Source: Alistipes sp. (lineage in GTDB: Bacteria > Bacteroidota > Bacteroidia > Bacteroidales > Rikenellaceae). Taken from it: a stretch of 64,000 nucleotides of DNA. Shown here one piece after another: positions 12,942-61,585 of the stretch. Below the pieces are notes generated by a model. That model ran no database searches, was not told where the DNA came from, and saw only the letters and a program-made list of their open reading frames with translations. The DNA is taken from positions 39,941-103,940 of the forward strand of contig JAGBEH010000010.1 of NCBI GenBank assembly GCA_017937125.1, in the 5' to 3' direction. A program made the position numbers and the translations under genes. Positions within the stretch are counted from its first letter, which is position 1; every line of letters starts with the position of its first letter.

Positions 12942-13171
12942 GATAAATTCGGCACAGGCCGATAAAGATATATATAAAGGGTAAACAACTCTTTATACCT
13001 TGTGTAAACTTGGAACCCTCCTCGGAGGTTGTTTAATCGGATGGTATAATGGTTGTCAGTCTCAAGTTATGTCCTGCTCGTTTCGGGCAGGACTGACTTG
13101 GGCGCAGGACAGCTTCCATCCGAAGGTTCTCCAAGACCGACACAAGGGGCTGACACCGCGCCCCTTTTTTA
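12942..13171 (+). ncRNA. Structured RNA 1: shared 5' domain plus long rod, 6S-like
   Basis: The 5' domain has hairpin TCGGC/GCCGA (about 12949-12962) and TATAAAG/CTTTATA around CAACTCTTTATAC. The body is a long imperfect rod: CTTGTGT (12999-13005) pairs with ACACAAG (13140-13146), CTTGG with CCAAG, CGGATGG with CCATCCG, and GTCCTGC with GCAGGAC at the tip. A GGGGC/GCCCC stem with six Ts (13147-13171) ends it. Such a rod with internal loops resembles 6S RNA, but no diagnostic sequence was recognised and it is not SRP RNA (no GGAAGCAG-type motif). Its 5' domain is shared with the minus-strand RNA at 61390-61585. ORFs across it have no homology. Confidence 0.6.
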
Positions 13172-13274
13172 TTTATTATTGGGTGCTGAATTGAATGAAC
13201 AACAGAATATAGAACATTATTATGCACCGTTTTCTACCAACCCATAACAAGTATTTATAACAAAAGTCGGTGCA

Positions 13275-13447
13275 GGACGCCCGCCGCACGAGCGGAATGC
13301 GGGTGCGGCGGGAACGTCCGAAAAATCAAAGGTATATAATTGTCGAATAGATATTGGGGCTCGGCCGTCGGCAGGTTCGTCACGAAAATTGGATAACTTT
13401 TTCGTCTGCAAGACGGGACCTGCCCGACGGCCGATTTTTCAACCCCG
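13275..13447. other. Two strong hairpins, possible structured RNA or 3' element
   Basis: First hairpin 13275-13319: GGACG/CGTCC outside CCCGCCGCAC/GTGCGGCGGG. Second, 13361-13434: a 16-bp stem TCGGCCGTCGGCAGGT with a one-base bulge on its partner, enclosing an inner ACGAAAA/TTTTCGT hairpin and flanked by GGGG/CCCC. Either strand could be the transcript. The element lies beyond the gapA terminator, and no coding frame explains it. Confidence 0.45.
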
Positions 13448-13450
13448 AAC

Positions 13451-13482
13451 GAAAACAAAAGAGCCCCGTCGTAACGGAGCTC
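13451..13482 (-). terminator. Intrinsic terminator of gapA
   Basis: On the minus strand GAGCTCCGT/ACGGGGCTC (one U-G pair) with a 4-nt loop, followed by TTTTGTTTTC. It lies 90 bp past the gapA stop, beyond one repeat-A unit. Confidence 0.8.
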
Positions 13483-13484
13483 TT

Positions 13485-13566
13485 GTTCGATTCTTGCACC
13501 TTTTCCCTCCTCGGCATACCCCGAGCAAGCTCGGCTCTGCGTTCGGCGAAAAGGACCGAAAGGTTT
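13485..13566 (-). repeat. Repeat family A, single copy
   Basis: Read on the minus strand this has the same order of motifs as the 76-bp tandem units at 29345-29571: AACCTTT, CCGAACGCAGAGCCGAGC, TTGCTCGG, GAAAAGGTGCAAGAAT. Its core CCGAGC-TT-GCTCGG is palindromic. It starts 6 bp after the gapA stop codon. Confidence 0.75.
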
Positions 13567-13571
13567 ACCGA

Positions 13572-14606
<1,035 letters not shown>

Positions 14607-14636
14607 TTAATGAATACGTTTCTGTCTTCAGTCACG

Positions 14637-14668
14637 CAAAAGTATATACTTTGTATATATTAACCAAA
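14637..14668 (-). promoter_or_regulatory. gapA promoter
   Basis: On the minus strand TTTG (14665-14668), a 20-nt spacer, then TACTTTTG (14637-14644): a full consensus match in an AT-rich stretch. Confidence 0.82.
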
Positions 14669-14735
14669 TAAAAAATAAATTTTTTTATTAAAATGGTGCT
14701 TTTCGTTTCGGACCGTAAGCGTATGGGACTTCGCA

Positions 14736-15509
14736 CTATCGCGTTCGGTCCTCCCGCATTTCGGCACCGCGCGCCCGCTTGGCCATAGCCGAGGCGAAGA
14801 CGAAATCGTTGAGTTCGCGGTTGTCGGCTTGCAGGATGTCGTCCTTGGTGCCCTCCCACCATTTGTGCCCCTCGTGGATATATACAATCTTCTCGCCGAT
14901 CTCCATCACGGAGTTCATATCGTGGGTGTTTATGATGGTGGTGATGTCGTATTCGCGGGTGATGTCGTGAATCAGGTTGTCGATAACCACGGAGGTCTGC
15001 GGGTCGAGACCCGAGTTCGGCTCGTCGCAGAAGAGGTATTTCGGATTCATGACTATCGCACGGGCTATGGCCACGCGCTTGATCATACCGCCGCTCAACT
15101 CCGAGGGATAGAGGTTGTCGGCACCATCCAGACGCACGCGCTTGAGACAGAAATCGACGCGCTCGCGCTTCTCGGCCTCGCTCTGGTCGGTGAAGAGGTC
15201 GAGCGGCAGCTTGACGTTCTCGATGACCGTTGAGGAGTCGAGCAGCGCCCCGCCCTGAAATATCATACCTATGTCGCGACGCACGGTCTTGCGCTCGGTG
15301 AAGTCGAGCGACGAGAAGCAGGTGTCGTCGTAGTATATGTCGCCCGAGTCGGGCGTGTGCAGCCCCACGAGCGTCTTGAGCAGCACGGTCTTACCCGAGC
15401 CGCTGCGCCCGATGATGAGGTTGGTTTTGCCCGTTTCGAACTCGACCGAGATGTCGTCGAGCACCGTGCGCCCGTCGAACGATTTGAATATGTGTTCGCA
15501 CTTTATCAC
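14736..15509 (-). CDS. mlaF: Mla-type ABC transporter ATP-binding protein
   Basis: The 257-residue ATPase has Walker A GRSGSGKT (34-41), a Q-loop MIFQGGALLD, signature LSGGM (138-142) and Walker B YLFCDEPNSGLDP (158-170). The GGALLDS and SGLDP forms are typical of MlaF, which powers phospholipid movement between outer and inner membranes. It overlaps the permease gene by 4 bp. A separate MlaD-type substrate-binding gene is not present in the window. Confidence 0.9.
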   Translation of the reverse strand: MIKCEHIFKSFDGRTVLDDISVEFETGKTNLIIGRSGSGKTVLLKTLVGLHTPDSGDIYYDDTCFSSLDFTERKTVRRDIGMIFQGGALLDSSTVIENVKLPLDLFTDQSEAEKRERVDFCLKRVRLDGADNLYPSELSGGMIKRVAIARAIVMNPKYLFCDEPNSGLDPQTSVVIDNLIHDITREYDITTIINTHDMNSVMEIGEKIVYIHEGHKWWEGTKDDILQADNRELNDFVFASAMAKRARGAEMREDRTR

Positions 15510-16249
15510 GTCAGCAGCAGTTGTGTAAGTATGAGGTTGAAAATCATTATCACGACAGAGCTTACGACCACGGCGCGGGTGGATGCCTTGCCCACTTCGA
15601 GCGAGTTGCCCTTGGCATAGTAGCCGCAGAATGCCGATATCGAAGTGATGATGAAAGCGAAGACCGCAATTTTGATGAGCGAGTAGACAACCGAATAGAC
15701 GCGGAAGTCGAAGAGCAGACCCTCGATATAATCATTCGGTATCATTATGCCCGTAAGCACGGCTATGGCGTAGCCGCCGATCGAGCCGATCATAATGCTG
15801 AGCAGCGTGAGAAACGGAAAAAAGAGTACCGTCGCGATGATTTTGGGCAGGATGAGATAGGAGGCGGAGTTGATGCCCATAATCTCCAGCGCGTCGATCT
15901 GCTCGGTGATGCGCATAGTGCCTATCTCGGAGGCGATGTTCGAGCCTACCTTGCCCGCGAGGATCAATGCGACCACGGTAGACGAGAATTCGAGCGTCAT
16001 AGTCTCGCGAGTGGCGTAACCTATGAGATATTGCGGGATGAACGGCGATTCGAGACTTATGGACATCTGCAACGTTATGGCGGCGCCGATGAATACCGAT
16101 ATTATGGCCGTCAGCCCTATGGAATTCATACCCAAGGCCTCCATTTCGTATATGACGCGGCGACGGTATATCGAGATCTTCTCGGGTCTCGAAAAGACCT
16201 TGCCCATAAGCAGGAAATAGCGTCCTATCAGTTCGAAAATCTTCAACAC
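15506..16249 (-). CDS. mlaE: Mla-type ABC transporter permease
   Basis: The 247-residue integral membrane protein has five to six hydrophobic segments and the MlaE pattern EMEALGMNSIGLTA near the N-terminus. GKVGSNIASEIGTMRITEQIDALEIMG in the middle is the cytoplasmic loop that contacts MlaF. Order and 4-bp overlap with mlaF show a single translational unit, and the upstream DUF4834 gene is 19 bp away. Confidence 0.92.
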   Translation of the reverse strand: MLKIFELIGRYFLLMGKVFSRPEKISIYRRRVIYEMEALGMNSIGLTAIISVFIGAAITLQMSISLESPFIPQYLIGYATRETMTLEFSSTVVALILAGKVGSNIASEIGTMRITEQIDALEIMGINSASYLILPKIIATVLFFPFLTLLSIMIGSIGGYAIAVLTGIMIPNDYIEGLLFDFRVYSVVYSLIKIAVFAFIITSISAFCGYYAKGNSLEVGKASTRAVVVSSVVIMIFNLILTQLLLT

Positions 16250-16268
16250 GAGCGGATGGTTTTGGAAA

Positions 16269-16640
16269 TTATCGTTTGCGGCCGTCGGGATTTTTCTCCT
16301 CCTCGAAATCGACGTATTCGCCCACGTCGTCGTTCACCTTCTTTTCGGGGGCGTCCGTTGTCTGATAAATGCGTACGTCGCCCTCTTTGCGGCGGCCGCG
16401 TGCAGTGTAGTCGGCATTATTGCGCAGTTCGTCCTCCATTCGGCGCTGCACGCGGCGCAGATGCCACGCGAACAGGGCGGTCGAGATCAGCGACAGCAGG
16501 ATTATGCCCAGTACCACATAGAGCATAAAACTGAAGACCCACGGCGCTGCTATCGCTATCAGCAGCATAAGCAGGCAGAACAGCGGGTTGCGGCGGATGA
16601 AGCCGACGATAGTATCGAAAAGTACGGTAATGAAATTCAT
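16269..16640 (-). CDS. DUF4834-like small membrane protein
   Basis: The 123-residue protein has two adjacent hydrophobic helices (about 10-60) and a basic then acidic soluble tail (RRVQRRMEDELRNN, DVGEYVDFEEEK). This matches the size and layout of DUF4834 proteins of Bacteroidetes. The frame is open to 16697, but the ATG at 16640 is preferred. TACCTTTG on the minus strand (16675-16682) places transcription start near 16669, downstream of the longer alternative start. It leads the operon with mlaE and mlaF, so an envelope role is plausible but not shown. Confidence 0.6.
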   Translation of the reverse strand: MNFITVLFDTIVGFIRRNPLFCLLMLLIAIAAPWVFSFMLYVVLGIILLSLISTALFAWHLRRVQRRMEDELRNNADYTARGRRKEGDVRIYQTTDAPEKKVNDDVGEYVDFEEEKNPDGRKR

Positions 16641-16736
16641 CGTCTTAAAAACGGTTCTATATGCAAAACCTTTGCAAAGGTACAAAAAAAGTGGCAACTA
16701 TATATATATTGCACCTCATTTGTTTTTAATATCCCG

Positions 16737-16893
16737 CTCACGTTCCTGTTCCTGTTCCCGTTCCCGCTCCGGTTTTTCGGGTTTCTCGCGGCATAGCCGC
16801 GTTTACAAATTTGACCCGCCCCTAAATCCCCGCCTCAGGCAGGGACTTCGGGTGAAACCCGTAAGGAAAACAGGACTTGGGAAGAACGTCAGT
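16737..16893 (+). repeat. Microsatellite-like tract followed by repeats C and B
   Basis: A (TTCCTG/TTCCCG)n-like run (about 16743-16770) is followed by the 15-bp palindrome CGCGGCATAGCCGCG (16787-16801; family C) and a family B segment (16838-16893). The same C-then-B order appears at 48936-49112. It lies between divergent DUF4834 and purB. Confidence 0.6.
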
Positions 16894-16972
16894 GCAGATT
16901 ATGCATATAGTCGCCGAAAAAGTGGCAGGTTTCATTATAAATTACTAATTTTGGCGTCAAATCCTACGCTTT

Positions 16973-18319
16973 ATGTTAAATCGATTATTGGCCGTTTCGC
17001 CTATCGACGGCCGTTACCGCAGAGTAACGGAACCGTTGGCCGACTATTTCTCCGAGTATGCGCTCATACGTTACCGCGTGCGTGTGGAGATAGAGTATTT
17101 CATCGCCCTGTGCGAGCTTCCCCTGCCCGAACTGAAGGGTGTGGACGCTTCGCTTTTCGACACTTTGCGCGACATCTATCGCAACTTCACGCAGGAGGAT
17201 GCCGAACGCGTGAAGGAGATCGAACTTACGACGAACCACGACGTGAAAGCCGTCGAGTATCTGCTCAAAGAGAAATTCGCGGTGCTCGGACTGGCCGGCT
17301 GTTCGGAATTCATCCATTTCGGCCTTACCTCGCAGGACATCAACAATACGGCTATGCCGCTGATGCTCAAGGAGGCGCTGGCCGACATATACATACCTGC
17401 CGTCGAGGAGTTGCAGGAGCGGCTCGCGGCTCTGGCGGAAGAGTGGCGCGGCATACCGATGCTCGCGCACACGCACGGCCAGCCCGCATCGCCCACCACG
17501 CTCGGCAAGGAGATACTGGTTTTCGCCGAACGTCTCGACGAACAGTACGGGCAGCTGCTCGATATTCCGCTGACGGCCAAGTTCGGCGGGGCTACGGGCA
17601 ATTTCAACGCCCATCACGCGGCATATCCCGCAATCGACTGGGCCGCGTTCGCCAACGGTTTCGTGGGTGGGCGTCTGGGACTGCGCCGCTCGCAGTTCAC
17701 CACGCAGATAGACCATTACGACAATCTCGCGGCGACGTTCGATGCGCTGAAACGCATAAATACCATACTCATAGACCTCTGCCGCGATATGTGGACATAT
17801 ATATCTATGGAGTATTTCCGCCAGCAGATAAAGGCGAACGAGGTGGGTTCGAGCGCTATGCCGCACAAGGTGAACCCCATAGATTTCGAGAATGCCGAAG
17901 GCAATTTCGGTATTGCCGATGCCGTTTACGAACACCTCTCCGCCAAGCTGCCCGTCTCGCGCCTGCAACGCGACCTGACGGACTCGACCGTTATGCGCAA
18001 TACGGGCGTGCCCGTCGCGCACTCGCTTATCGGCATACGGTCGCTGCTGAAAGGGTTGGGCAAGCTGCTGTTGAACCGTGAAGCCATAGACCGCGATTTG
18101 GATGCCAACTGGGCTGTCGTCGCCGAGGGTATTCAGACTATTCTGCGACGGGAGGGTTATCCCAAACCGTACGAGGCGCTTAAGGCCCTTACGCGCAAAA
18201 ACGAGCATATTACCGAGCAGACGATACGCGAGTTCATCGCATCGCTCGACGTGTCCGAGAGCGTGAAGGAAGAGCTGTCGGCTCTGACGCCGCATACGTA
18301 CGTCGGTATTTTCGGTTAG
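16973..18319 (+). CDS. purB: Adenylosuccinate lyase
   Basis: The 448-residue enzyme cleaves adenylosuccinate and SAICAR in purine synthesis. It has SPIDGRYR at the N-terminus, TSQDINNT (119-126), HTHGQPA (166-172) and the fumarase/aspartase signature SSAMPHKVNP (293-302), which carries the mobile catalytic serine. The length fits the E. coli-like subclass. No gene of the same pathway adjoins it. A structured element follows the stop directly. Confidence 0.97.
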   Translation: MLNRLLAVSPIDGRYRRVTEPLADYFSEYALIRYRVRVEIEYFIALCELPLPELKGVDASLFDTLRDIYRNFTQEDAERVKEIELTTNHDVKAVEYLLKEKFAVLGLAGCSEFIHFGLTSQDINNTAMPLMLKEALADIYIPAVEELQERLAALAEEWRGIPMLAHTHGQPASPTTLGKEILVFAERLDEQYGQLLDIPLTAKFGGATGNFNAHHAAYPAIDWAAFANGFVGGRLGLRRSQFTTQIDHYDNLAATFDALKRINTILIDLCRDMWTYISMEYFRQQIKANEVGSSAMPHKVNPIDFENAEGNFGIADAVYEHLSAKLPVSRLQRDLTDSTVMRNTGVPVAHSLIGIRSLLKGLGKLLLNREAIDRDLDANWAVVAEGIQTILRREGYPKPYEALKALTRKNEHITEQTIREFIASLDVSESVKEELSALTPHTYVGIFG

Positions 18320-18347
18320 CGGACGGCGGGGTGATGTATAAAAAAAC

Positions 18348-18412
18348 AGGCGGGAATCTCTCAATTGCCGCCTGCCTTCGGGGCTTTGCACCCCTAAACT
18401 ACTAACCCAAAG
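18348..18412 (+). other. Hairpin plus ACTACTAACCCAAA element (copy 2)
   Basis: AGGCGG/CCGCCT hairpin (18348-18373), a GGGG/CCCC mini-hairpin, then ACTACTAACCCAAA (18398-18411), beginning 28 bp after the purB stop. The same architecture recurs at 19326-19390 and the final motif, as ACTACTAACCTAAA, at about 2291-2306. It may act as the purB 3' end or as a leader for what follows. Confidence 0.5.
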
Positions 18413-18533
18413 GTTGTAAACATTTATTGATACACCTATGTAGGTTTCATTTTGTTTTTGTAAATAAATTATCTATATTTGTGGTATCATTGCGGAATAC
18501 GCAATGTTTTGGATGGCATTTAGGCTGTTGGAT

Positions 18534-18726
18534 TTGTAACAAAAACGACCAATTTTAGAGACAAAAACACCAACAGGCACACTAAGTGCTCACGCCGTTT
18601 TGGCGTGGGTTGTGCTTGTGTTTTTGTAGGTGCTTGGTCGTACCTTGTTACAATGAGCGCACTCACGCTTCTCTTTTTTAGAGTTAAACAGTTGCTATCT
18701 AAAGAGCAACGACACCTATGTTTAAC
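18534..18726 (+). other. Nested inverted repeats, candidate structured leader or MITE-like element
   Basis: The outer arms TTGTAACAA (18534) and TTGTTACAA (18645) are perfect complements. Inside them, CGACCAA/TTGGTCG, ACAAAAACAC/GTGTTTTTGT and CACGCC/GGCGTG nest concentrically around a GTTTT loop. A second hairpin follows: GTTAAACA (18683) with TGTTTAAC (18719), and GTTGCT with AGCAAC inside. The region is AT-rich and lies directly upstream of the secreted protein gene at 18745. No coding frame fits. Confidence 0.65.
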
Positions 18727-18744
18727 TTAAATAATTAAAGTACT

Positions 18745-19305
18745 ATGAAAAGGTTTTTATTTTTGGTGATTACGGTTTTATTATCAGTTCCTTGTTTTGC
18801 GCAAAAAAGCACAAATGAAGATAAGACTGAAAGTAAAACACTAGAGTTTATTTCTCGCGGAAGCTCTCTTATTAGAAAGGAGTTCTATGATTTGGGGTCA
18901 GTTAAAGGGGTTCAATGTGAAGTATTGATTGTTACTGATTTGCTTAAAAATGAGAAAATGGGTTGCCTTCGTCTGAAAACCAAATATACCAGTAGCTATT
19001 CTACCGATACTTATATTGGTACCCTCGATTACGACGAAATAGAAGATTGTATTAAATCTCTTAATCATATTAAAGATAACATTCTTCCATCTATACCTAG
19101 CACATACACAGAAGTGGAATATAGCACTAGAGATAATATAAAGGTAGGTGCTTATTATAATGAAAAAAAACTTTCTTGGACTGCATATGTTTATATAAAA
19201 AGTTACACAAGTCGATCAGCTGAGTTTTTTGATGCAGCATCATTATCTTTGTTGGTTAACAAAATGGCTTCTGCGAAGAATATGATTGCCGAAAAAATCA
19301 AATAA
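18745..19305 (+). CDS. Hypothetical secreted protein, AT-rich
   Basis: The 186-residue protein has a clear signal peptide (MKRFLFLVITVLLSVPCFAQ). The mature part is a soluble mixed alpha/beta domain with a LKTKYTSSYSTDTYIGTLDY strand pair and a C-terminal amphipathic helix. I do not recognise a family. Base composition is much more AT-rich than its neighbours, which suggests transfer. It is preceded by a 190-bp structured region and followed within about 20 bp by the hairpin/ACTAACCC element, so gene and flanks could form one unit. Confidence 0.7.
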   Translation: MKRFLFLVITVLLSVPCFAQKSTNEDKTESKTLEFISRGSSLIRKEFYDLGSVKGVQCEVLIVTDLLKNEKMGCLRLKTKYTSSYSTDTYIGTLDYDEIEDCIKSLNHIKDNILPSIPSTYTEVEYSTRDNIKVGAYYNEKKLSWTAYVYIKSYTSRSAEFFDAASLSLLVNKMASAKNMIAEKIK

Positions 19306-19325
19306 TAGAAACATAAAACAAAAAT

Positions 19326-19390
19326 AGGCGAGAGTCGTCACGACTGTCGCCTACCCCAGGACTCATTGCGAGCCCTTCTACTAACCCAAA
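19326..19390 (+). other. Hairpin plus ACTAACCCAAA element (copy 3)
   Basis: The hairpin AGGCGA/TCGCCT (19326-19352) has an inner AGTCGT/ACGACT stem. A 27-nt spacer and CTACTAACCCAAA (ending 19390) follow. It starts 20 bp after the stop of the AT-rich secreted-protein gene. Confidence 0.5.
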
Positions 19391-19584
19391 CTTAAATAAA
19401 TGAAGAAACCTCACTGCGCCGTGCAGTTTTTCGACGCAGTTGCCCGAACTGTCGCAAATCCCGTGCCGCCGGTATGCCGTCGGGCGAATCGAGCCTTTAG
19501 GCGACATCAAAAAGCCCGAAACGGATATTATCGCATTTTTTTTCGATTCCGATATGTGGGTTTTTCGGCAGTCGGCCGTCATAT

Positions 19585-19624
19585 ATATGACAAAGGTTCG
19601 GATTTGCTTCCGAATGTGTCATAT
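19585..19624 (+). promoter_or_regulatory. Inverted repeat upstream of the exported nuclease-fold gene
   Basis: ATATGACA (19585-19592) pairs with TGTCATAT (19617-19624), and TTCGG with CCGAA inside. TGTCATA occurs twice more just upstream of clpB (about 20593 and 20625), so this may be a shared regulator site rather than an RNA hairpin. Confidence 0.4.
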
Positions 19625-19652
19625 TTTACAGAAAAACCAAACAACCTTAGTT

Positions 19653-20504
19653 ATGAAAAAACTTCTTATTCTTTCGGCTTTGGCATTGCTCGTCGGAGCG
19701 ACCGATTGTTCAGCCAAGAAATTCCGTTACGACACGCCTGCGGGCAAAGTGAAGCTCATAAGCTACAATATCCGTCAGAGCGGGGCCAACGACGGCGACA
19801 ACTGTTGGATGAACCGCCGTCCCGCAACTGTCGAGATGATGCGTCGCGAGGCGCCGTCGGTGATAGGTATGCAGGAGGTGAAACTCGACCAGGCGCAATA
19901 TATCGAGGAGAATATGCCGCAGTACGCACGTGTCGGCGTCGGCCGCGACGACGGGAAAGACAAGGGCGAGATGTGCGCCATCTACTATCTGAAAAAGAAA
20001 TTCGAATTGCTCGACAGCGGTACTTTCTGGCTCAGCGAGACGCCCGATGCGATTTCGCGCGGCTGGGACGCGAAGTACAACCGCATAGTTACGTGGGTGA
20101 AACTTCGCGAGAAGGCTACGGGCAAGGAGTTTTTCTTCTTCAACGGCCACCTCGACCACAAGGGCGTAACTGCCCGCAAGGAGTCGATGAAACTCATCGT
20201 ACGCAAGATTTTCGAGATTGCGGGCAAGGATGCGGCCGTCATCTTGGGCGGCGACTTCAATGCGCTGATAAACGATGACATTTACACGCCCGTAAAGGAG
20301 GTCTCCACACTTGCGCGTACGGCAGCGCCCGTTACGGATTCCCGCCCGACATTCAACTCGTGGGGACGGCGCAAGGGCGATATTATAGACCATCTGTTCG
20401 TGCGTAATCTCAACTGTCTCGAATACCGTACGCTCGACGGCGATTACGGGGTTCCGTTCATATCGGACCACTATCCCGTGCAGCTCGTGTTCGAGGTGAA
20501 ATAG
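19653..20504 (+). CDS. Secreted endonuclease/exonuclease/phosphatase family protein
   Basis: The 283-residue protein has a signal peptide (MKKLLILSALALLVGATDCSA) and the DNase-I-like fold. LISYNIRQSG carries the metal-binding Asn. IGMQEVKLDQ carries the metal-binding Glu. FNGHLDHKG and ILGGDFNAL give the catalytic His and Asp/Asn. SDHYPVQLVFEVK at the C-terminus gives the final Asp-His pair. Exported family members in Bacteroidetes may act on sugar-phosphate, lipid or nucleic-acid esters; the substrate is not predictable. The ATG at 19653 is chosen for the signal peptide. A strong terminator follows. Confidence 0.85.
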   Translation: MKKLLILSALALLVGATDCSAKKFRYDTPAGKVKLISYNIRQSGANDGDNCWMNRRPATVEMMRREAPSVIGMQEVKLDQAQYIEENMPQYARVGVGRDDGKDKGEMCAIYYLKKKFELLDSGTFWLSETPDAISRGWDAKYNRIVTWVKLREKATGKEFFFFNGHLDHKGVTARKESMKLIVRKIFEIAGKDAAVILGGDFNALINDDIYTPVKEVSTLARTAAPVTDSRPTFNSWGRRKGDIIDHLFVRNLNCLEYRTLDGDYGVPFISDHYPVQLVFEVK

Positions 20505-20527
20505 CCGCTGCTTACGGCAAGTCGCAG

Positions 20528-20554
20528 GCCGCCCCGTTTCGGGGCGGCTTTTTT
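20528..20554 (+). terminator. Intrinsic terminator
   Basis: Perfect GCCGCCCC/GGGGCGGC stem, 5-nt loop, followed by six Ts. Confidence 0.92.
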
Positions 20555-20640
20555 GTCGTTCGGCAGGATTTCGCGACTGTTTGTCGCCAAGTGTCATAAG
20601 TTGGCAGACTTTTGCGGCCATTGTGTCATATTTCTGCCGC

Positions 20641-20656
20641 TGGCAGGTATTTTGCT
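20641..20656 (+). promoter_or_regulatory. Sigma-54-like promoter upstream of clpB
   Basis: TGGCAGG-N4-TTGCT keeps the GG-N10-GC spacing of RpoN promoters and would start transcription about 30 nt before the clpB ATG. It overlaps the palindrome CTGCC-GCT-GGCAG. A second TGGCA...TTGC at 20603-20616 is one base too short. TGTCATA is repeated at about 20593 and 20625. Confidence 0.4.
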
Positions 20657-20696
20657 CGTACGAAGGCGAAACGGAAACGATAAAAACATATACGAT

Positions 20697-23300: not shown

Positions 23301-23321
23301 TAGGCGTTGCCGATAGTAACG

Positions 23322-51604: not shown

Positions 51605-51702
51605 AAGTTGTATTGCGTATTTTAGTTGAATTTCCGATTCGAATTACAAATATACTGTTTTTTTTGTGCAAAAACCTCTCGCGAGGCTCTTTTTTTTCAA
51701 AA

Positions 51703-51734
51703 CTTGGCAATGTGCGGGGATTTTTCTACCTTTG
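51703..51734 (+). promoter_or_regulatory. Promoter of recF-dciA
   Basis: CTTG (51703-51706), 20-nt spacer, TACCTTTG (51727-51734). Leader about 14 nt. Confidence 0.7.
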
Positions 51735-51753
51735 GGGAGTGGAATTTTAGGAT

Positions 51754-52842: not shown

Positions 52843-53129
52843 GACGTACGGAGCCGAAACTCATAGGGAATATGTTCGACGAACTGTTCCGCAGTCCGAA
52901 CATCGCCGCCAAGATCGCCGAGGGCTGTCTGCCCGACACGTGGCGCGAGGTCGTCGGCGACCGCATAGCCGACCAGACCACGCAGATACGGTTCATCCGC
53001 GGAACGATGTACGTACACGTCCTGTCGAGCGTCGTACGGTCGGAGTTGATGCTGCGGCGTGCGGCATTGCAGGCGGCGGTCAATGAGCGTTCGCGTGTCC
53101 CTATCGTGCGGAATATGATAATCAAGTAA
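52839..53129 (+). CDS. DciA-like DUF721 protein
   Basis: The 96-residue protein has WREVVGDRIADQTTQIRFIRGTMYVHVLSSVVRSELMLRR, the DUF721 core of DciA, the ancestral helicase loader. It is short, essentially only the core, as is usual in Bacteroidetes. ATGA overlap with recF. Confidence 0.88.
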   Translation: MRRTEPKLIGNMFDELFRSPNIAAKIAEGCLPDTWREVVGDRIADQTTQIRFIRGTMYVHVLSSVVRSELMLRRAALQAAVNERSRVPIVRNMIIK

Positions 53130-53146
53130 ATCGTCCGAAACGGCCG

Positions 53147-54943
53147 TTATTCGGCATCTGCATCCCGTCGTCCGAAATAGTCGCCGCGAATCATCACGTC
53201 CGACATACGCCACGCCTCCCTCAACCGTTCGGCATCTCTGTCGTCACCTAATACGCGCCCCGAAGCGTCTACGGCGCATTTCGGCGCATCGTCGCGCAGT
53301 ACGCTGCGCCCGAGACCGCGCCATCCGTACTCCCCGAGTCCGAACATATCGAGCAGCGTGGGATACATGTCTATCTGTCCCATAACCTTTTCATAGCGTA
53401 TGCCGACGGGTGCGCCGAGTATGATGAAAGGCGTGAAACATTCTGGCGAAACGATACCCGCACCCGCTTTGTCGGCCGCAAGCATCGCTCGGTCCGAAGC
53501 CAGACCCTCGTGGTCGCCCGTGATGACGATGACGGCATCCGCGAAGCGGGGATGTGCGCGCAGCCCGTCTACGAAAGCGCCGACGGCCGCGTCGGTATAG
53601 TTCGCCGTCGTCATATAGTCGTCCATCAGCCGGGGAATGTCGTCGGGGAACGATACGCGTTTGAGTTTTTCGGGAAGTACGAACGGCGTGTGTCCCGAGT
53701 AGGTTATGCACTGGAGATAGAGCGGCGCGTCGTTATCGGCGGCAAGGGCGTCGAACTTTTCGAGACACTCGGCCAGAAACGGGCCGTCGGCCGCACGCTT
53801 GTGGTTGCCGTGTCCCGTCTGTTCGCTGCGGCCGAAATCCGAGCGGTCGAACAATCTGTCGAAACCGAACTGTCCGGCGACGATCATCTGGTTCCACATA
53901 GTCGCCTTGTCGGGCGTGAACGAATATGCCCGCAAATCGGCATTCCGCTCGCGAAAGGCTTTGACGACGGTAGGATATGTCGAATAGGGATAGCGCGAGC
54001 TGAAGCACCCGTCGGATATGGGCAGCAGCCCCGCCGTAAGCAGCAGCTGCGCATCTATCGAACGGCCGCCCTTGACCTGCGTGAGTACGTTCGGCGCATA
54101 GAAAGTATCGGAAGCCGCCAGCAGGCGGTTGAGGTTCGGCGTGATCTCTATGCCTTCGACCGAACGTTCGAGCACCCAGCTTTCGAACGATTCGAGAATA
54201 AGCACCACCACCGTATGCGGCACGGCGAATGCGGGCGCGGGCGTATGGTTGCGTGCACGGAATACGAACTCGTCGATTTTGGCCGTAAGTTCGGGCGTCA
54301 TCTCGGGGGTGTTGTCCAAGGCTTCGTATATCAGCGTCCCGAAGATCGAATATGTGGGCGTCGCACTCAGCTGTCGATGTATGAGCATTTTCCCGTAGCT
54401 TTTGCGGAATCCTCCCTGCGCCAGCATCAGCCCCCAGATCGTACAGCCGCACAGAATCGTCGCTGCCGCATATATCCCCGCTCTGCGCAACGTCTGCCGA
54501 TCGAAGCGCAATTTCTTCAGGGCGAGAATCATTGCCGCCGTCGTTGCGGGGAACAGCAGGTCGCACCAGCGGAACGAAGCGAAGATACTGGAGACGAAAT
54601 CCGTCATATTCCCGACCAGAAGATAGCTATCGAGCGGAATGACGGTATAATAGGTGCGGAAATAGAGCAGGTTGGCAACTAAAAAGATATCGACGGCCAC
54701 AGCTTCGATGACGATTGCGACCGAGGCTGCCGTTTTCGGAAATCGGGGTATTAGCGGGAAAATGAGACATAAGGCGATGAACGCCTTGCTCAGATAGGTG
54801 GTGGGGTAGGAGAATGACGAGAATGTGGTGGCGAAGCACCAAATCGCGTCGAAGATCAGGAATTTAAGAAAAAACAGCCCTGCGCAGATCGCTGCAAGGG
54901 ATGCCTTTCGCGAATCGGTGAGATACCCCCCCCCTATGGCAAA
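53147..54943 (-). CDS. LTA-synthase-like sulfatase (membrane phosphoglycerol/phosphoethanolamine transferase family), start unresolved
   Basis: The frame encodes several N-terminal membrane helices and then a sulfatase-fold domain. VVLILESFESWVL is the metal site and KGGRSIDAQLLLTAGLLP carries the nucleophile-region Ser. YLQCITYSGHTPF follows, and VIVITGDHEGLASD carries the Asp-His metal ligands. Family enzymes transfer head groups from lipids at the outer face of the inner membrane. A GTG at 54700 would give 517 residues but truncates the first helices. The same frame stays open to 54943 and encodes further helices, with no ATG. An ATG at 54950 lies before a G9 tract (54926-54934) and is out of frame by one base. 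Confidence 0.75.
   Translation of the reverse strand, partial: FAIGGGYLTDSRKASLAAICAGLFFLKFLIFDAIWCFATTFSSFSYPTTYLSKAFIALCLIFPLIPRFPKTAASVAIVIEAVAVDIFLVANLLYFRTYYTVIPLDSYLLVGNMTDFVSSIFASFRWCDLLFPATTAAMILALKKLRFDRQTLRRAGIYAAATILCGCTIWGLMLAQGGFRKSYGKMLIHRQLSATPTYSIFGTLIYEALDNTPEMTPELTAKIDEFVFRARNHTPAPAFAVPHTVVVLILESFESWVLERSVEGIEITPNLNRLLAASDTFYAPNVLTQVKGGRSIDAQLLLTAGLLPISDGCFSSRYPYSTYPTVVKAFRERNADLRAYSFTPDKATMWNQMIVAGQFGFDRLFDRSDFGRSEQTGHGNHKRAADGPFLAECLEKFDALAADNDAPLYLQCITYSGHTPFVLPEKLKRVSFPDDIPRLMDDYMTTANYTDAAVGAFVDGLRAHPRFADAVIVITGDHEGLASDRAMLAADKAGAGIVSPECFTPFIILGAPVGIRYEKVMGQIDMYPTLLDMFGLGEYGWRGLGRSVLRDDAPKCAVDASGRVLGDDRDAERLREAWRMSDVMIRGDYFGRRDADAE
54926..54934 (-). repeat. Homopolymeric G9 tract at the sulfatase start
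   Basis: Nine consecutive Gs on the coding strand, between an upstream ATG (54950) and the open sulfatase frame. Lengths of 8 or 11 would join the two. Confidence 0.85.
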
Positions 54944-54991
54944 CTATCATAACTATTTGATTGACTGATATTTATATTAGCAAATTGCGGG

Positions 54992-56575
54992 TTAAAATTC
55001 GGCCGTGAAGCGGAACCGTATATCCTTGAAATTCTCCTGCGCCAAGGCCAGTGCGTAGCTCGTGTCGGCGAGAAAGACGTCGCGGCCGTGTTTGTCTACG
55101 GCCATATTCGTATGCTTGCGCCGTTTGAAATCGGCCAGCTGCTCGGCATTGTCGCTTTCTATCCAGCACGCCTTGTAAATGGAGATGGGTTCCCAGCGGC
55201 ACATAGCCCCGTACTCGTGCTCCAACCTGTATTGTATAACCTCGAACTGCAACGCTCCTACGGTGCCGATGATCTTGCGGCCGTTCAGGTTCGACGTGAA
55301 CAGCTGCGCCACGCCCTCGTCCATAAGCTGGTCGATACCTTTCGACAGCTGCTTGAACTTCATCGGGTCGGCATTCTCGATATAGCGGAACAATTCGGGC
55401 GAAAAAGACGGGATACCCGTGAATTTCAACTTTTCTCCTTCGGTGAACGTGTCGCCTATCTTGAATGTGCCCGTGTCGTGCAGGCCGACGATGTCGCCCG
55501 GGAACGCGAAGTCTATCACCGACTTCTTCTCGGCCATAAATGCCGTCGGCGCCGAGAATTTCAACTGCTTGCCGCTGCGGACGTGCAGGTAATTCTTATT
55601 GCGTTCGAACTGCCCCGAGCATATCTTCATAAAGGCTATGCGGTCGCGGTGGTTCGGGTCCATATTGGCGTGTATCTTGAATATGAAGCCCGTCATTTTC
55701 GGTTCCGCAGGCTCTACGGCACGCGTTTCGGTAACAGACGGACGCGGCGACGGAGCTATGCGGATGAAGCATTCGAGCAGCTCCCGTACTCCGAAATTAT
55801 TCACCGCCGAGCCGAAGAATATCGGCGCTACCTCGCCGCGCAGATAGGCTTCACGGTCGAAAGCATCGTAAACGCCGTCTACGAGTTCTACGTCGCTGCG
55901 CAGCTGCGCGGCATAACGCTCGCCCACGTAACCGTCGAGTTCCGACGATGCGATGTCGTCGATTTCGACCGTCGAGGCGTCGGCCGTCTGGCGTTCGTCG
56001 CTGGTAAAGAGCGAGAGGTTGTGTTCGTAGAGATTGTAGACGCCCTTGAAAGTCGTGCCGCTCGATATGGGGAACGCCAGCGGGCGCACCTTTATCTGCA
56101 ACTCGCGCTCCACCTCGTCCAACAGGTCAAACGGGTCCTTGCACGGGCGGTCGAGCTTGTTTATGAAGACCATTACGGGAGTCTTGCGCATACGGCAGAC
56201 GTTCATCAGTTTGCGCGTCTGCGTCTCGACGCCCTTCGCACCGTCGATAACGATGATTACCGAGTCTACGGCCGTCAGCGTGCGGTACGTGTCCTCGGCG
56301 AAATCCTCGTGGCCGGGCGTGTCGAGAATGTTTATCTTCACATCCCTGTACTCGAAGCCCATAACCGACGTTGCGACCGAGATACCGCGCTGGCGCTCTA
56401 TCTCCATAAAGTCCGAAGTCGCGCTTTTGCGTATCTTGTTGCTCTTGACGGCCCCCGCGACGTGTATTGCGCCGCCGAAGAGCAGCAGCTTCTCGGTAAG
56501 CGTGGTTTTACCCGCATCGGGGTGCGAAATTATGGCGAACGTACGCCTGCGTGCAATCTCTTCCTGTAAAGTCAT
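54992..56575 (-). CDS. prfC: Peptide chain release factor 3
   Basis: The 527-residue translational GTPase has G1 [10 protein letters not shown] (about 17-26), switch I with [11 protein letters not shown]3 DTPGHEDF, G4 NKLD and then RF3-specific domains II and III. It recycles RF1/RF2 after termination. It starts 10 bp after the nadB stop and is followed 48 bp later by the sulfatase frame, so all three may share a transcript. Confidence 0.96.
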
Positions 56576-56585
56576 CGTATCACTC

Positions 56586-58145
56586 TTATTTTTTCGGCGG
56601 ATAATCTATGGTATAGTGCAGGCCCACCGACTCCTTGCACTCGCGCGCCTGCTTTATCGTAAGATAGGCCACGGCGATCATATTGCGCAGCTCGCACAGC
56701 TCGCGGCACGGCCGCGTGCGGTTGTAAAGCTCTTCGGTCTCTTGCCATATTATCGCCAGACGCTTCATCGCCCGTTCCAGACGCAGGTTCGACCGCACGA
56801 TACCCACGTAGTTGGACATAATGTTCTGCAACTCCTTGCGGTTCTGCAACACGAGCACCATCTCTTCGGCTTCGGCCGTGCCTTCGAAATCCCAGTCGGG
56901 AATGCCCTCCTGAAAATCCACCCTGTCGAGGAACTGCGCCGCGTGGCGTGCCGCCTGATCGGAGTAGACGAACGCTTCGGAGAGCGAGTTGGATGCCAGA
57001 CGGTTGGCGCCGTGCAGCCCCGTGCAGGAGCTTTCGCCCAGCACGTAGAGCCGTTTTATCGAGCTTTCGCCGTTGCTGTCCACCGTCACGCCGCCGCAGC
57101 AGTAGTGCGCCGCAGGGCATACGGGTATCATATCTTTCGTAATGTCGATGCCTATCGACATGCATTTTTCGTATATGTTGGGGAAATGGTGTCGTGTCTG
57201 CTCGGCGGGCATATGCGTAACGTCGAGATAGACGAACTCCTCGCCGCGTATCTTCAATTCGTGGTCTATCGAACGCGCTACGACGTCGCGCGGGGCGAGC
57301 GAGCGCATAGGATGATATTTGTCCATAAACTCCTGCCCGTTTTGCAGCCGCAGAATACCGCCGTAACCGCGCATCGCCTCGGTTATGAGGAACGACGGAC
57401 GCTCCCCGGGGTGGTAGAGCGAGGTCGGGTGGAACTGGATGTATTGCATATTCTTGGTAAATGCCTTGGCTCTGTGGCACATAGCTATGCCGTCGCCCGT
57501 AGCTACCGTCGGATTGGTCGTCGTGTTGTAGATGTTGCCGCAGCCGCCCGCAGCCACGACGGTGAATTTCGCCAGCACGGTCTTTATCTCGTCCGTGTCG
57601 GTGTCGAGGACATAAGCCCCGAAGCAGGCCAGACCGCGCGTGTGGCGCGTGACTATCTCGCCCAAATGGTGCTGCGTCAGCAAGTCGATGGCGAAATGGT
57701 GCTCCAGCACGGTGATATTTGCGTTGTTGCGCACCTGCTCGATGAGCGCGCGCTCGATTTCGGCACCCGTCAGGTCGCTGTGGTGGAGTATGCGGTGCTC
57801 GGAATGGCCGCCCTCGCGATGAAGGTCGAAGCGTCCGTCGGGGGTCTTGTCGAAATCCACGCCCCAGCCTATGAGGTCTTCGGCCGCTTCGGGCGCACGG
57901 CGCACCACGAGCTCCACGGCCTCGCGGTCGCATTTCCCCGCTCCGCAGACGAGCGTGTCCTCGATATGTTTCTCGAACGTGTCGGGCAGATATGTCACCG
58001 AACATATGCCGCCCTGCGCGTAATTGGTATTGCACTCGGCCAGTTCTCCTTTCGTGACGAGCGTAACGTGTCCGTGGCGCGAGGCCTTGAGCGCGAAGCT
58101 CAGTCCTGCGGAGCCCGAACCGATAACCAGAAAATCCGTTTTCAT
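56586..58145 (-). CDS. nadB: L-aspartate oxidase
   Basis: The 519-residue flavoprotein has the FAD motif [13 protein letters not shown] (about 7-19), [12 protein letters not shown] and [20 protein letters not shown]-type sequence with the catalytic region [18 protein letters not shown] follows, as does [19 protein letters not shown]. It makes iminoaspartate for NAD synthesis; nadA and nadC are not in the window. Start ATG 58145 is chosen by homology. TATCTTTG on the minus strand (58172-58179) comes from a repeat-D copy. Confidence 0.96.
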
Positions 58146-58171
58146 AAACAACCAATCGGTTTTAGACGTCG

Positions 58172-58310
58172 CAAAGATACGAATAAGCCGAGAGAAAAAA
58201 GCAAGCTTGCTTGCATTTTTTCCGAGACGGAGTATCTTCGACAGAGTCAAAGATACGAATAAGCGAGGGCAATGCAAAATTTATTTGAGCATTGCCGGGC
58301 GGGAGTATCT
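58172..58310 (-). repeat. Repeat family D, two copies upstream of nadB
   Basis: Copies at 58176-58242 and 58251-58310 read on the minus strand. Each keeps GAATAAG and GAGTATCT flanks. The cores are GAGAAAAAAGCAAGC paired with a matching GCTTGC-T-rich arm, and GGCAATGC/GCATTGCC. The inner edge of the second copy has TTTG-N19-TATCTTTG. The first copy supplies the -7 element nearest nadB. Confidence 0.85.
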
Positions 58311-58467
58311 AAAACGTAGTTAAAGATAGTAAATTATCGCATAAATGGACCGCATGCGGCGTCAATTCCGCAACTCCCGGGCATATTGTCACCGCTTTGA
58401 GGATAAAGCATTTAGTAAAAATCTTGAAAAATTGTTGTTATTTTTTTCACAATCCAAAATATTAACG

Positions 58468-58475
58468 TATCTTTG
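58468..58475 (+). promoter_or_regulatory. -7 element of pckA
   Basis: TATCTTTG with a T-rich -33 region (58441-58447). The leader of about 95 nt contains a GCACT-CGC/GCG-AGTGC hairpin, so post-transcriptional control is possible. Confidence 0.55.
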
Positions 58476-58575
58476 AGCCGTGAAAATGCAGTCTCGCACT
58501 CGCGATTTATTGGCGCGAAAAGTGCAGCTACGGCAAACGGAAAGGAAAAGAGGTTAATCAAAACATACAGTAATT

Positions 58576-60177
58576 ATGTCAAAGATCGATTTATCGAAGT
58601 ATGGTATCTCCGACGTTAAGGAGATAGTTTACAACCCGTCCTACGAACTGCTGTTCGAGGAGGAGACCAAAGAGGGCCTTACGGGCTATGACAAGGGTGT
58701 GCTGACCGAGCTGGGCGCAGTCAATGTTATGACGGGCGTTTATACGGGTCGTTCGCCCAAAGACAAGTTCATCGTTATGGACGAGAACTCGAAGGACACC
58801 GTATGGTGGACTACCGACGAGTACAAGAACGACAACAAGCCCGCTTCGCAGGAGGCTTGGGCTGCCGTGAAGAAGATCGCACAGGAGGAGCTTTCGGGCA
58901 AGAAACTCTATGTGGTGGACGGTTTCTGCGGCGCCAACAAGGATACGCGTATGGCCGTGCGCTTCATTATGGAGGTTGCCTGGCAGGCTCATTTCGTGAA
59001 GAATATGTTCATCCGTCCCACGGAGGAGGAACTCAAGGACTTCGAGCCCGATTTCATCGTTTACAACGCATCGAAGGCTAAGGTCGAGAACTACAAGGAG
59101 CTGGGTCTTAACTCCGAGACGGCAGTCGTGTTCAACATCACTTCGCGCGAGCAGGTCATCATCAATACGTGGTACGGCGGCGAGATGAAGAAGGGTATGT
59201 TCTCTATGATGAACTACTACCTGCCTTTGAAGGGCATCGCTTCGATGCACTGCTCGGCCAACACCAACGAGAAGGGCGAGACCGCTATCTTCTTCGGCCT
59301 TTCGGGTACGGGCAAGACCACCCTTTCGACCGACCCGAAGCGTCAGCTTATCGGCGATGACGAGCACGGTTGGGACGACAACGGCATCTTCAACTTCGAG
59401 GGCGGCTGCTATGCCAAGGTAATCAAGCTCGACAAGGAGTCCGAGCCCGATATTTACAACGCCATCCGACGCGATGCGCTGCTCGAGAACGTTACGGTGG
59501 ACAAGAACGGCAAGATCGATTTCGACGACAAGAGCGTTACCGAGAATACCCGCGTATCGTATCCTATCGACCACATCAAGAATATCGTAAAGCCCATTTC
59601 GGCAGCTCCCGCGGCCAAGAACGTGATATTCCTTTCGGCCGACGCATTCGGCGTGCTGCCTCCCGTTTCGATCCTCACTCCCGAGCAGACGAAGTACTAC
59701 TTCCTGTCGGGCTTCACGGCGAAACTCGCAGGTACCGAGCGCGGCATCACCGAGCCTACGCCGACCTTCTCGGCCTGCTTCGGTCAGGCGTTCCTCGAAC
59801 TCCACCCGACCAAGTATGCGGAGGAGCTCGTTAAGCGTATGGAGAAGAGCGGTGCGAAGGCATACCTCGTGAACACGGGTTGGAACGGTACGGGCAAACG
59901 TATCTCTATCAAGGATACGCGCGGCATCATCGATGCTATTCTCGACGGTTCGATAAAGAGCGCGCCGACGAAGAATATTCCTATCTTCAACTTCGAGGTT
60001 CCGACCGAACTTCCCGGTGTAGATCCCAAGATCCTCGACCCTCGCGACACCTATGCCGATGCGGCTGAGTGGACGAAGAAGGCCGAAGACCTCGCAGGCC
60101 GTTTCATCAAGAACTTCGGCAAGTACACCAACAACGAGGCCGGCAAGGCTTTGGTTGAGGCAGGTCCGAAGTTGTAA
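58576..60177 (+). CDS. pckA: Phosphoenolpyruvate carboxykinase (ATP)
   Basis: The 533-residue enzyme has [25 protein letters not shown] and the P-loop [11 protein letters not shown] (about 241-251). [23 protein letters not shown] carries the metal Asp, and [15 protein letters not shown] follows. It links oxaloacetate and PEP; in gut Bacteroidetes it often runs in the CO2-fixing direction toward succinate. Codon usage is strongly biased, consistent with high expression. Confidence 0.98.
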
Positions 60178-60242
60178 TGTCCCGCCGACGAACTGTCGGC
60201 AGCATTATCGGATAGGGCTGTTCGACAAGCCCGCTTTCAACG

Positions 60243-60280
60243 AATCACCCCCGTCGGAATAAACTCCGACGGGGGTGATT
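60243..60280 (+). terminator. Terminator of pckA
   Basis: 16-bp perfect stem AATCACCCCCGTCGGA with its complement, 6-nt loop. The AATC/GATT ends take the place of a U-run. Confidence 0.8.
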
Positions 60281-60735
60281 GCTGTTTGCGGGGAGCTTGC
60301 GGACGGCTTGCGGATGACTTTCAGACGGCTCTCGGACGGCTTTTGTAGAGTTTTCGGAGAGCTCTCGGACGGCTTGTCTTGTGCCCGTATACAATTTCCC
60401 GCCTCTTCCGTTCCCTGTTTCGCCGGTTTCCCGTCTCTTCCGTTCCCCGCCTTTCTCTTTTCCCGTCTCGCCCGTGCGGTGCAGCCGTCCTGCTGTTTGC
60501 TGTATTCTTGGTCGTAGTTGAGGTTACAGTTCCCGTGTTTGCGGCGATTTGCAGTGGTTTGCAGTGGTTTGCAGTGTGCGAGAGGTCGCTGTGATTCGCG
60601 GCGGTTTGTGCGGTTTCGCGGTGTGAGAGTTGCGGTGATTTGCGTGGTTTCGCGGTTTGCGCAGTTGAGAGGTCGCGGTGATTTGCGCGGTTTTCGCGGT
60701 TGAGAGGTCGCGGCGGTTCGCGGTCGCGGTGCTCG
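60281..60735. repeat. Low-complexity degenerate tandem repeats
   Basis: Three zones: CGGACGGCTT-type repeats (about 60290-60385), C/T-rich TTCC-GTTCC-type runs (about 60395-60480) and GGTCGCGGTGATTTGCG / GGTTTCGCGGTT-type repeats (about 60535-60735). The open frame on the minus strand across it is an artefact of composition. No gene seen. Confidence 0.65.
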
Positions 60736-60736
60736 T

Positions 60737-61198
60737 CTATGATTGCCGCTTCCTGCCTGCGAAGATTGCCGCCGTTATTTCGTCGTATCTCTCGACGTCG
60801 AATATGTCGAAATCGGGCATTATCCGTCCCGTCTCCCGCGCCAGCCTGATGTATTGTACGAGGGTGATTGCGTGCAGCATCGCTTGCGGATCGGCATCGC
60901 GCGTACGGTCGAAATAGCTCTCGTCCAGATATTGACGGGCGAATTGCACGAACATAAATACACGGCCGAATACCGATACCGCCCTGCATTTTGCGGGTAT
61001 GTCCTCGCCGTCCTTCTGCCATTCGTCTACCCAGCGGTCCAGCAACTCGTCGGGAACGTCATTCGACATAGCCCGCAAATCATTAAGCGCCAGATAAATC
61101 ATACTCGTATATATAGTGTCGCGCGTCTCTTTGTCGAGATGCTCCATTTTCAACGTCTTTATAAATTCGTTTACTTTGTCGTTATTGTAGGATGCCAT
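60737..61198 (-). CDS. Hypothetical helical protein
   Basis: The 153-residue soluble protein is largely helical and acidic, with MIYLALNDLRAMSNDVPDELLDRWVDEW and FVQFARQYLDESYFDR. No signal peptide, no known motif; not recognised. It stands alone downstream of a structured RNA on the same strand, about 190 nt after the RNA's rod. That RNA could be its leader. Confidence 0.65.
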   Translation of the reverse strand: MASYNNDKVNEFIKTLKMEHLDKETRDTIYTSMIYLALNDLRAMSNDVPDELLDRWVDEWQKDGEDIPAKCRAVSVFGRVFMFVQFARQYLDESYFDRTRDADPQAMLHAITLVQYIRLARETGRIMPDFDIFDVERYDEITAAIFAGRKRQS

Positions 61199-61389
61199 AG
61201 GGGTAATTTTTTAGGCTGTTTCGGAAAACGGCACGAACCCGAATCGGTTTCCGTTTGTGTGTCGGTCATCGACCCGTCCGTTTTCGTGACGAAGCCGTTC
61301 GAAATTCGTGCCGCAATTGCATTCGGTGCCGTCGGCGTCCTATCGCGTCCCCGTAGCGTAGAAAATAAAAAAGCAAGGGACGCGATAAC

Positions 61390-61585
61390 ATTCCTTACTG
61401 AAGGTATTAGGAGACCCAAGGTTAGAAAATGTACCGCGCCCTTGCAAGTCCCGTCCTTTCGGACGGAACAGAAGCAAGGACCGGCAACATTTATACCCTA
61501 ACCTTTGAAAAGTTCCTAATTTTTCAGTAAAGTATAAAGAGTTGCTGTTCTTTAAGTATGTACGTCGGCTTACACCGAATTATTT
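61390..61585 (-). ncRNA. Structured RNA 2: shared 5' domain plus 136-nt rod
   Basis: On the minus strand a consensus promoter precedes hairpin TCGGT-GTAA-GCCGA and the box CAACTCTTTATAC, matching RNA 1 at 12942. A long rod follows: TTACTGAA (61395-61402) pairs with TTCAGTAA (61523-61530), ATTAGGA with TCCTAAT, AAGGTTAG with CTAACCTT, AAATGT with ACATTT, and CCGTCC-TTTC-GGACGG forms the tip. Layout resembles 6S RNA; no known signature was seen. Beyond it, GCAAGGGACGCG (61373-61384) followed by a minus-strand T6 could pair with the rod's CGCGCCCTTGC (61435-61445) as an alternative terminator. Confidence 0.65.

Follow-up and report, generated by a model that had tools for sequence, protein, structure and literature searches.

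Attenuators of the trp and his type consist of four segments with mutually exclusive pairings (1:2 and 3:4, or else 2:3) followed by a U-tract, ligand-sensing riboswitches may carry terminator platforms, and HepT-MntA is a toxin-antitoxin type of the MNT/HEPN kind. The stretch analyzed here, 64,000 nucleotides (nt) of Alistipes sp. (contig JAGBEH010000010.1, positions 39,941 to 103,940 of the forward strand; hereafter the window), carries two related predicted RNAs, W1 on the plus strand and W2 on the minus strand. Like the trp and his attenuators, the Alistipes RNA appears to have four segments, mutually exclusive 1:2/3:4 and 2:3 pairings, a U-tract and, in some copies, a possible short leader open reading frame (ORF); unlike them, it is ~230 nt long, forms a long rod closed by a stem P1, shows no run of a single amino acid's codons, and occurs in up to eight copies per genome, many of them without a downstream gene. 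With terminator-platform riboswitches it shares a conserved internal loop and a seemingly switchable terminator, but its downstream genes have no common function and no ligand is known. The divergent gene at some copies encodes HEPN and nucleotidyltransferase domains, as in HepT-MntA, although here they are fused in one protein beside the RNA, at some copies only and at none in the window's own genome. A long rod with a bulge, a promoter-like element and a terminator recall 6S RNA (including 6S-Flavo), from which the Alistipes RNA differs in lacking an Rfam match, in being multicopy and patchy, and in its alternative pairing; Bacteroidales-1 is likewise a Bacteroidales RNA preceded by a promoter-like element. 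For comparison we used a study of the 6S RNA of B. thetaiotaomicron and its product RNAs (PMC7366714) and related literature (PMC2864571, PMC8040213).

Judging from their alignments, W1 and W2 are related over their full length and belong to a large family of ~230-nt RNAs in the Rikenellaceae that appears not to have been described. We tentatively read these RNAs (probability about 0.48) as working like transcription attenuators, with some copies orphaned and perhaps trans-acting.

Two window RNAs and their relatives

The original prediction, made from the letters of the window, placed a shared box, hairpin and promoter-like element at both sites, and all three are present. The 13-mer box CAACTCTTTATAC occurs exactly twice in the window, at 12986-12998 (+) and 61544-61532 (-), with no occurrence in 100 shuffles. 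The hairpin H1 reads TCGGC-ACAG-GCCGA in W1 and TCGGT-GTAA-GCCGA in W2, so that a C-G inner pair in W1 corresponds to U-G in W2 and pairing is kept as claimed; the H1 pattern alone is less special (7 window matches against 0.86 expected). An element matching TAnnTTTG, the Bacteroidetes promoter -7 consensus, ends 13 nt before H1 in W1 and 12 nt before it in W2. The AAAG said to stand directly before the box is in fact separated from it by 6 nt (W1) and 5 nt (W2). The elements of the two copies are:

12928-13171, plus strand: W1 with its promoter-like element; predicted RNA ~12941-13171 (5' end predicted)
12928-12935, plus: W1 promoter -7-like element TATATTTG, a match to TAnnTTTG
12949-12962, plus: W1 hairpin H1, near the predicted RNA 5' end
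12974-12996, plus: W1 hairpin H2, a predicted competitor of helix 1:2
12986-12999, plus: W1 region 1 CAACTCTTTATACC, the H2 3' strand and partner of region 2
12998-13015 (approximate), plus: W1 outer rod stem P1, 5' strand
13043-13057, plus: W1 region 2 GGTATAATGGTTGTC, partner of region 1 or region 3
13071-13093 (approximate), plus: W1 rod tip hairpin P5
13100-13113, plus: W1 region 3 GGGCGCAGGACAGC, partner of region 2 (rod) or region 4
13128-13147 (approximate), plus: W1 outer rod stem P1, 3' strand
13149-13163, plus: W1 region 4 GCTGACACCGCGCCC, 3' strand of the 3:4 terminator helix
13165-13170, plus: W1 U-tract
61598-61365, minus strand: W2 with its promoter-like element; predicted RNA ~61585-61365 (5' end predicted)
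61591-61598, minus: W2 promoter -7-like element TAACTTTG, a match to TAnnTTTG
61565-61578, minus: W2 hairpin H1
61532-61544, minus: W2 region 1, the 13-mer box
61483-61497, minus: W2 region 2 GGTATAAATGTTGCC
61428-61441, minus: W2 region 3 GGGCGCGGTACATT
61373-61392, minus: W2 region 4 AATGTTATCGCGTCCCTTGC
61367-61372, minus: W2 U-tract

Downstream of the shared start, the two bodies had been taken for unrelated rods. They share 113 of 208 core columns in an alignment of 44 copies (A3), and both match the covariance model R1, built from A3, over positions 1-205, at 189 bits (W1) and 126 bits (W2), scores that include the contribution of W1 and W2 themselves to the model. Both have region 2 (GGTATAAxxGTTGyC) and region 3 (GGGCGCrG), and they agree in parts of the loops and of the terminator; the stems differ largely through compensated changes. 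On this alignment the W1 and W2 rods are diverged versions of one rod, and the proposal of unrelated rods is not supported, the whole RNA being homologous.

The proposal of swapped bodies does hold in one sense. Outside the P1 arms, two other copies in the same genome, C4 and C1a, have 95.3% identity, whereas the arm strands (TTAGTACA/TGTACTAA and TACTCGTA/TGCGAGTA) differ, yet pair in both. L028/L038 and L035/L065 behave in the same way (91% each), and the pairs L035/L044, L035/L064, L044/L064, L032/L056 and L055/L063 share P1 arms. An exchange of interiors between copies would be the simplest cause of this mismatch of arm and interior. Copy C1a (L013, G000:C1:9292-9846) also carries an insertion of ~290 base pairs (bp) between promoter/H1 and H2.

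The alignment behind R1 started from a pattern scan of genome contigs, which gave 53 stretches, of which 39 (40 matches) passed a check for a region-3-like motif; the 14 that failed, in Prochlorococcus for example, look like chance matches. Adding nine places from the own genome and G006 gave 49 sequences, reduced to 44 by removing two without a 3' end and three repeated cores. Carriers in the scan include Alistipes muris, A. montrealensis, A. senegalensis and Rikenella microfusus. In the own genome, blastn with W1 found six further places (one of them a promoter fragment only) and missed W2, while R1 finds seven full copies. A genus-wide search with R1 gave 92 places in 35 of 180 genomes, 1-8 in each (E<=1e-4, strict filters), and no match in the other 145, an absence that is provisional, as are all those from our searches of more than 40 genomes, which used strict filters. 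G075 has eight copies, the own genome and G074 seven each, and three others six each; among 295 order-level genomes (own included), only one other genome matched R1, at 35 bits.

The Rfam covariance search that the original prediction had proposed found no family: with all models run at both window sites, nothing reached the gathering score and only chance-like matches fell below it. At 14 loci with remote members, the only Rfam matches lay away from the RNA: two to 5S rRNA, one each to a tRNA and a cobalamin riboswitch, and two below threshold. Literature searches gave no description of the family that we recognized, and it may be among the candidates of one survey (PMC8040213).

The TAnnTTTG element stands just before H1 in most main-type copies. 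In 26 of 45 copies (one core being identical to another) it is found no more than 62 nt upstream of the core, where 0.047 per copy is expected, and 25 of these 26 have it at 37-46 nt. Among the other 18 distinct copies it lies at 122-134 nt in 13, at 142/152 in one and at 129/157 in one (no chance expectation was computed for these), and it is absent within 260 nt in three, one of which has a short flank. A short ATG-start ORF ending in H1 is found in 24 of 44 copies, namely 13 of the 18 without a near promoter element and 11 of the 26 with one; the statistics are weak, as two of the 13 arise through an unrelated ATG, the in-frame chance is one in three and the copies are related. The W1 leader ORF is of another form, and W2 has no ATG-start leader ORF.

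Predicted rod, terminator and competing helices

From 5' to 3', the RNA is predicted to form H1, H2, the rod (P1 with its variable arms, an inner hairpin, P2, a TATAA bulge and P3-P5) and the terminator. Over the 44 copies, 87.7% of rod cells are paired and both-side changes are seen in 39 of 67 pairs (307 cells), compared to 27.0 pairs and 101.5 cells in shuffles and at most 28 and 106 in slid controls, which bears out the expectation that paired positions would be kept in relatives. Helix H2 has no both-side change. For 3:4, 91.9% of cells are paired, with both-side changes in 5 of 11 pairs (13 cells versus 4.8); 55 R1 matches give 7 of 11 pairs and 34 cells (16.2 in shuffles), the pair count being reached in 14 of 500 shuffles and the cell count in none. 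In the same 55 matches, which were aligned to the rod model and thus to a model containing neither 1:2 nor 3:4, helix 1:2 has both-side changes in 10 of 11 pairs (26 cells versus 8.2).

A duplex test that needs no exact columns compares the energies of cognate and exchanged segments (88-90 of 91 rows, 2000 permutations). Cognate 3:4, 1:2 and 2:3 are each better than every permutation (0/2000 as good), whereas the controls 1:3 (1140/2000) and 1:4 (626/2000) show nothing; in 23 remote members, 3:4 and 1:2 still hold (0/2000 each). These comparisons support three competing helices, 1:2, 2:3 and 3:4, kept by compensatory change. As in an attenuator, the predicted antiterminator and terminator helices exclude each other, and the U-tract directly follows the terminator helix (by eye in listings).

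In 35 of 44 copies, among them W1 and W2, the unconstrained minimum-energy fold of the 5' half has six or more 1:2 pairs; that of the whole core has five or more 2:3 pairs in 39 of 44. With pairs forced, the rod state is better than 1:2 plus 3:4 in 40 of 44 copies, by a median of 9.0 kcal/mol; a forced-H2 comparison was set aside in favor of the unconstrained folds, as its columns misfit copies with a shifted H2 (W2 among them), and energies with the alternative pairs forbidden were left out because that constraint affected further pairs too. The modeled energy order is what a co-transcriptional switch would need.

R1 misses a rod-like sequence at L175 600-860 (G022:C33) that is divergent from an XRE gene and whose region-3/region-4 terminator layout resembles that of the family; it may be a further subtype.

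Genes beside the RNA copies

The window genes nearest to the two RNAs are:

11838-12794, plus strand: plsX-type gene (Pfam FA_synthesis), upstream of W1, context only
13572-14588, minus strand: gapA (GAPDH), convergent to W1; no gene is called immediately after W1 on its own strand
61676-62278, minus strand: lspA (signal peptidase II), upstream of W2, context only
60737-61198, minus strand: 153-aa gene after W2, a second-domain member of an unassigned protein family found after some other RNA copies

The original prediction's view of a structured RNA family with a promoter-like element, not accounted for by any gene, is supported. A further long hairpin, ending in a T-run or carrying one, is located at 13361-13437 ahead of gapA on the far side of W1, and a similar one follows copy C1a (L013).

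The 153-aa protein has no match in Pfam, PADLOC, PHROGs or NCBIfam. Its family has two domains; scanned members lack Pfam, PHROG and NCBIfam matches, and a search of the PDB found no sequence relatives below E 0.7. In 30 genomes, all 11 strong members lie 27-1851 nt after the RNA on the same strand, but nine are query rows and a tenth is ~90% identical to one of these, so this result mainly shows that these genomes have no strong member elsewhere; three weaker members do lie away from the RNA. One of the 12 rows of the protein alignment used (A6; L028:5540-6041) was out of frame, which causes some weak matches but apparently not the 11 strong ones. Two tandem RNA copies 1146 bp apart at L064 1738-3086 (Alistipes muris), with much the same upstream sequence, each precede a different gene of this family.

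A same-strand downstream gene is present for W2, the G074 copies, L098, L099 and others, and absent for five of the seven own copies. The U-tract runs directly into an ATG in L098, L099 and all seven G074 copies. The ORFs of the G074 copies span 25-116 aa (one cut by unread bases), and by a codon-use score trained on the window several of them are poor and those of L098 and L099 are negative, though homologous to each other. Of the 11 weakest full-length matches outside G074, eight lie 31-118 nt before an ORF with a signal-peptide-like start (by eye). A recurring hairpin with GTTGCGTCAC and GAATTCTTC strands is seen by eye downstream of the RNA in L026, L028, L038, L065, L074, L130 and L140; it also occurs without the main RNA at L176 ~1000-1060 (-), directly divergent from an XRE gene.

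On the upstream side we surveyed 67 chosen copies (45 main type, 22 others), 64 of which have 400 nt upstream. A divergent gene of three overlapping classes is found in 34 of the 64 (small XRE in 19, MNT-HEPN in 14, ORF6N in 6), and none of these in the other 30. The MNT-HEPN product matches HEPN at 7.8e-15, and its nucleotidyltransferase domain scores at the cut-off. In 18 genomes, 17 of 18 strong MNT-HEPN relatives (one of the 18 being the query) stand divergent at 179-208 bp from the RNA, and two weak matches are on contigs where the R1 search found no RNA. The 36 XRE matches with E<=1.1e-17, among 54 listed, include 19 divergent within 300 bp of an RNA (18 at 143-169 bp) and 25 within 1.5 kb; without six query rows, 13 of 30 are within 300 bp. 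Eleven XRE matches without an RNA were searched again with filters off (10 stretches), which gave one more RNA (L183, 50.9 bits). The XRE link to the RNA family is partial. In the own genome, MNT-HEPN finds no match, and the single XRE match of the linked family adjoins copy C3. Literature searches found no description of an XRE/MNT-HEPN-RNA cassette. A tyrosine recombinase at L157 193-1410, close to an XRE-RNA-gene cassette, suggests that some cassettes sit in integrated elements.

Proposed attenuator-like control and its alternatives

If the RNA works like an attenuator, the first helix, formed while the 5' half is being made, would be 1:2. Formation of the rod with 2:3 would then keep region 3 from region 4 and let the polymerase read on; if no rod formed, the 3:4 terminator helix leading into the U-tract would end transcription. 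The deciding signal might be a protein, a ligand or translation of the short 5' ORF, acting on the conserved internal loop of the rod or on H1/H2. The working cis form would be the cassettes, in which the RNA heads a gene and has a divergent XRE or MNT-HEPN gene. Most own-genome copies, W1 included, head no such gene and would be free short transcripts at most; W2 still precedes one.

Several results weigh against this mechanism. No whole-core minimum-energy fold has at least six pairs of 3:4 or 1:2 (0/44), so the terminator state would at best be kinetic. Readthrough would not necessarily follow from the rod, since a short hairpin ahead of the U-tract remains paired there (88.6% of cells over the 3 pairs counted). 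The 2:3 helix is weaker in the 23 remote members (13/2000 permutations as good), 2:4 pairing, which we leave uninterpreted, also exceeds permutation over all rows (0/2000), and shuffles and permutations alike ignore the relatedness of the copies. The pattern scan fixed region 1 and part of region 2, which in itself makes them invariant in A3. Among the 58 copies having 1 kb downstream, only ten have a downstream-family gene on the same strand; five of the seven own copies, W1 included, face a convergent gene next downstream (codon-use gene calls); at C4 the next gene is 391 nt away; and rod pairing in the six own copies other than W2 is 0.904, versus 0.877 in the other 38 rows. Because five of the seven own copies face convergent genes, many copies would seem to be free-standing, and the intact pairing of these orphans is why orphan, possibly trans-acting, use is kept as the main rival. 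We consider it somewhat unlikely that the family as a whole consists of free-standing trans-acting RNAs, either base-pairing small RNAs or RNAs that partner a protein (the XRE or MNT-HEPN product, for example), with the competing folds serving maturation or as an on/off switch of the RNA itself and 3:4 as a plain 3' terminator. The promoter-like element at its regular distance and the terminal U-tract would make each copy a self-contained unit, structure is kept in own copies without a cis gene, a genome may hold up to eight copies, and the spacing to divergent MNT-HEPN genes is narrow; the ATG directly after the U-tract in the G074 copies, L098 and L099, and the many remote members with the RNA close before ORFs, speak for control in cis.

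A ligand-binding riboswitch, with the rod and its conserved AAAC/GACC internal loop as aptamer, is improbable. Strands of the internal loop beside P1 are seen again in remote members (by eye) though the stems vary, and 3:4 resembles an expression platform, but the downstream genes share no pathway and many copies are orphans. It is more doubtful still that the copies are remnants of a small mobile element with no RNA function, for which dispersal, duplicated flanks (W1 and C4 are 89% identical over 264 nt downstream) and the recombinase beside the L157 cassette may be cited. In 21 comparisons of the seven own copies, pairing is confined to one of the two copies at 154 pair positions, against 159 that differ on both sides and 132 that differ on one side and yet pair; blastn with W1 matched no plasmid or phage record, and no search for terminal repeats was made. 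Two pattern matches in IMG/VR failed the check for a region-3-like motif. Least credible of all is homology to 6S RNA with binding of RNA polymerase; the original prediction had called the RNAs perhaps 6S-like. The long rod with its asymmetric TATAAT bulge fits it, and neither 6S-Flavo (RF01685) nor Bacteroidales-1 (RF01693) was found at either site or in 25 genus genomes, the own genome among those searched with the latter, so that these models leave the 6S RNA of the genus unaccounted for; the Bacteroidales-1 model does match G026 (136 bits), where the sequence looks different by eye. All Rfam models at the two sites gave no 6S-type match (RF00013 was not run genome-wide), 6S RNA is expected in one or few copies where we count 1-8 per genome in 35 of 180 genomes, and the family is linked to regulators and shows alternative pairings, so 6S membership is not supported. 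The idea that W2 is an ancestral 6S-like single copy tied to lspA was dropped: only L099 had an lspA-like ORF, ~1 kb off and convergent.

A broader version of attenuator-like control is unlikely, though less so than these last three explanations: the RNA, with its exchangeable interior, and a divergent gene for a phage-repressor-like XRE or fused MNT-HEPN protein might form exchangeable switch cassettes that gate fast-evolving proteins of no assigned fold, with orphan copies as trans decoys or co-regulators, in an RNA-gated immunity or addiction system of gut Alistipes.

The RNA family itself is strongly supported, has no Rfam match at the sites tested and reaches up to eight copies per genome in gut Alistipes. 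Its three competing helices are supported by the sequences alone, which makes the proposed switching mechanism directly testable, and the fixed distance at which MNT-HEPN and XRE genes stand suggests a gene cassette linked to the RNA.

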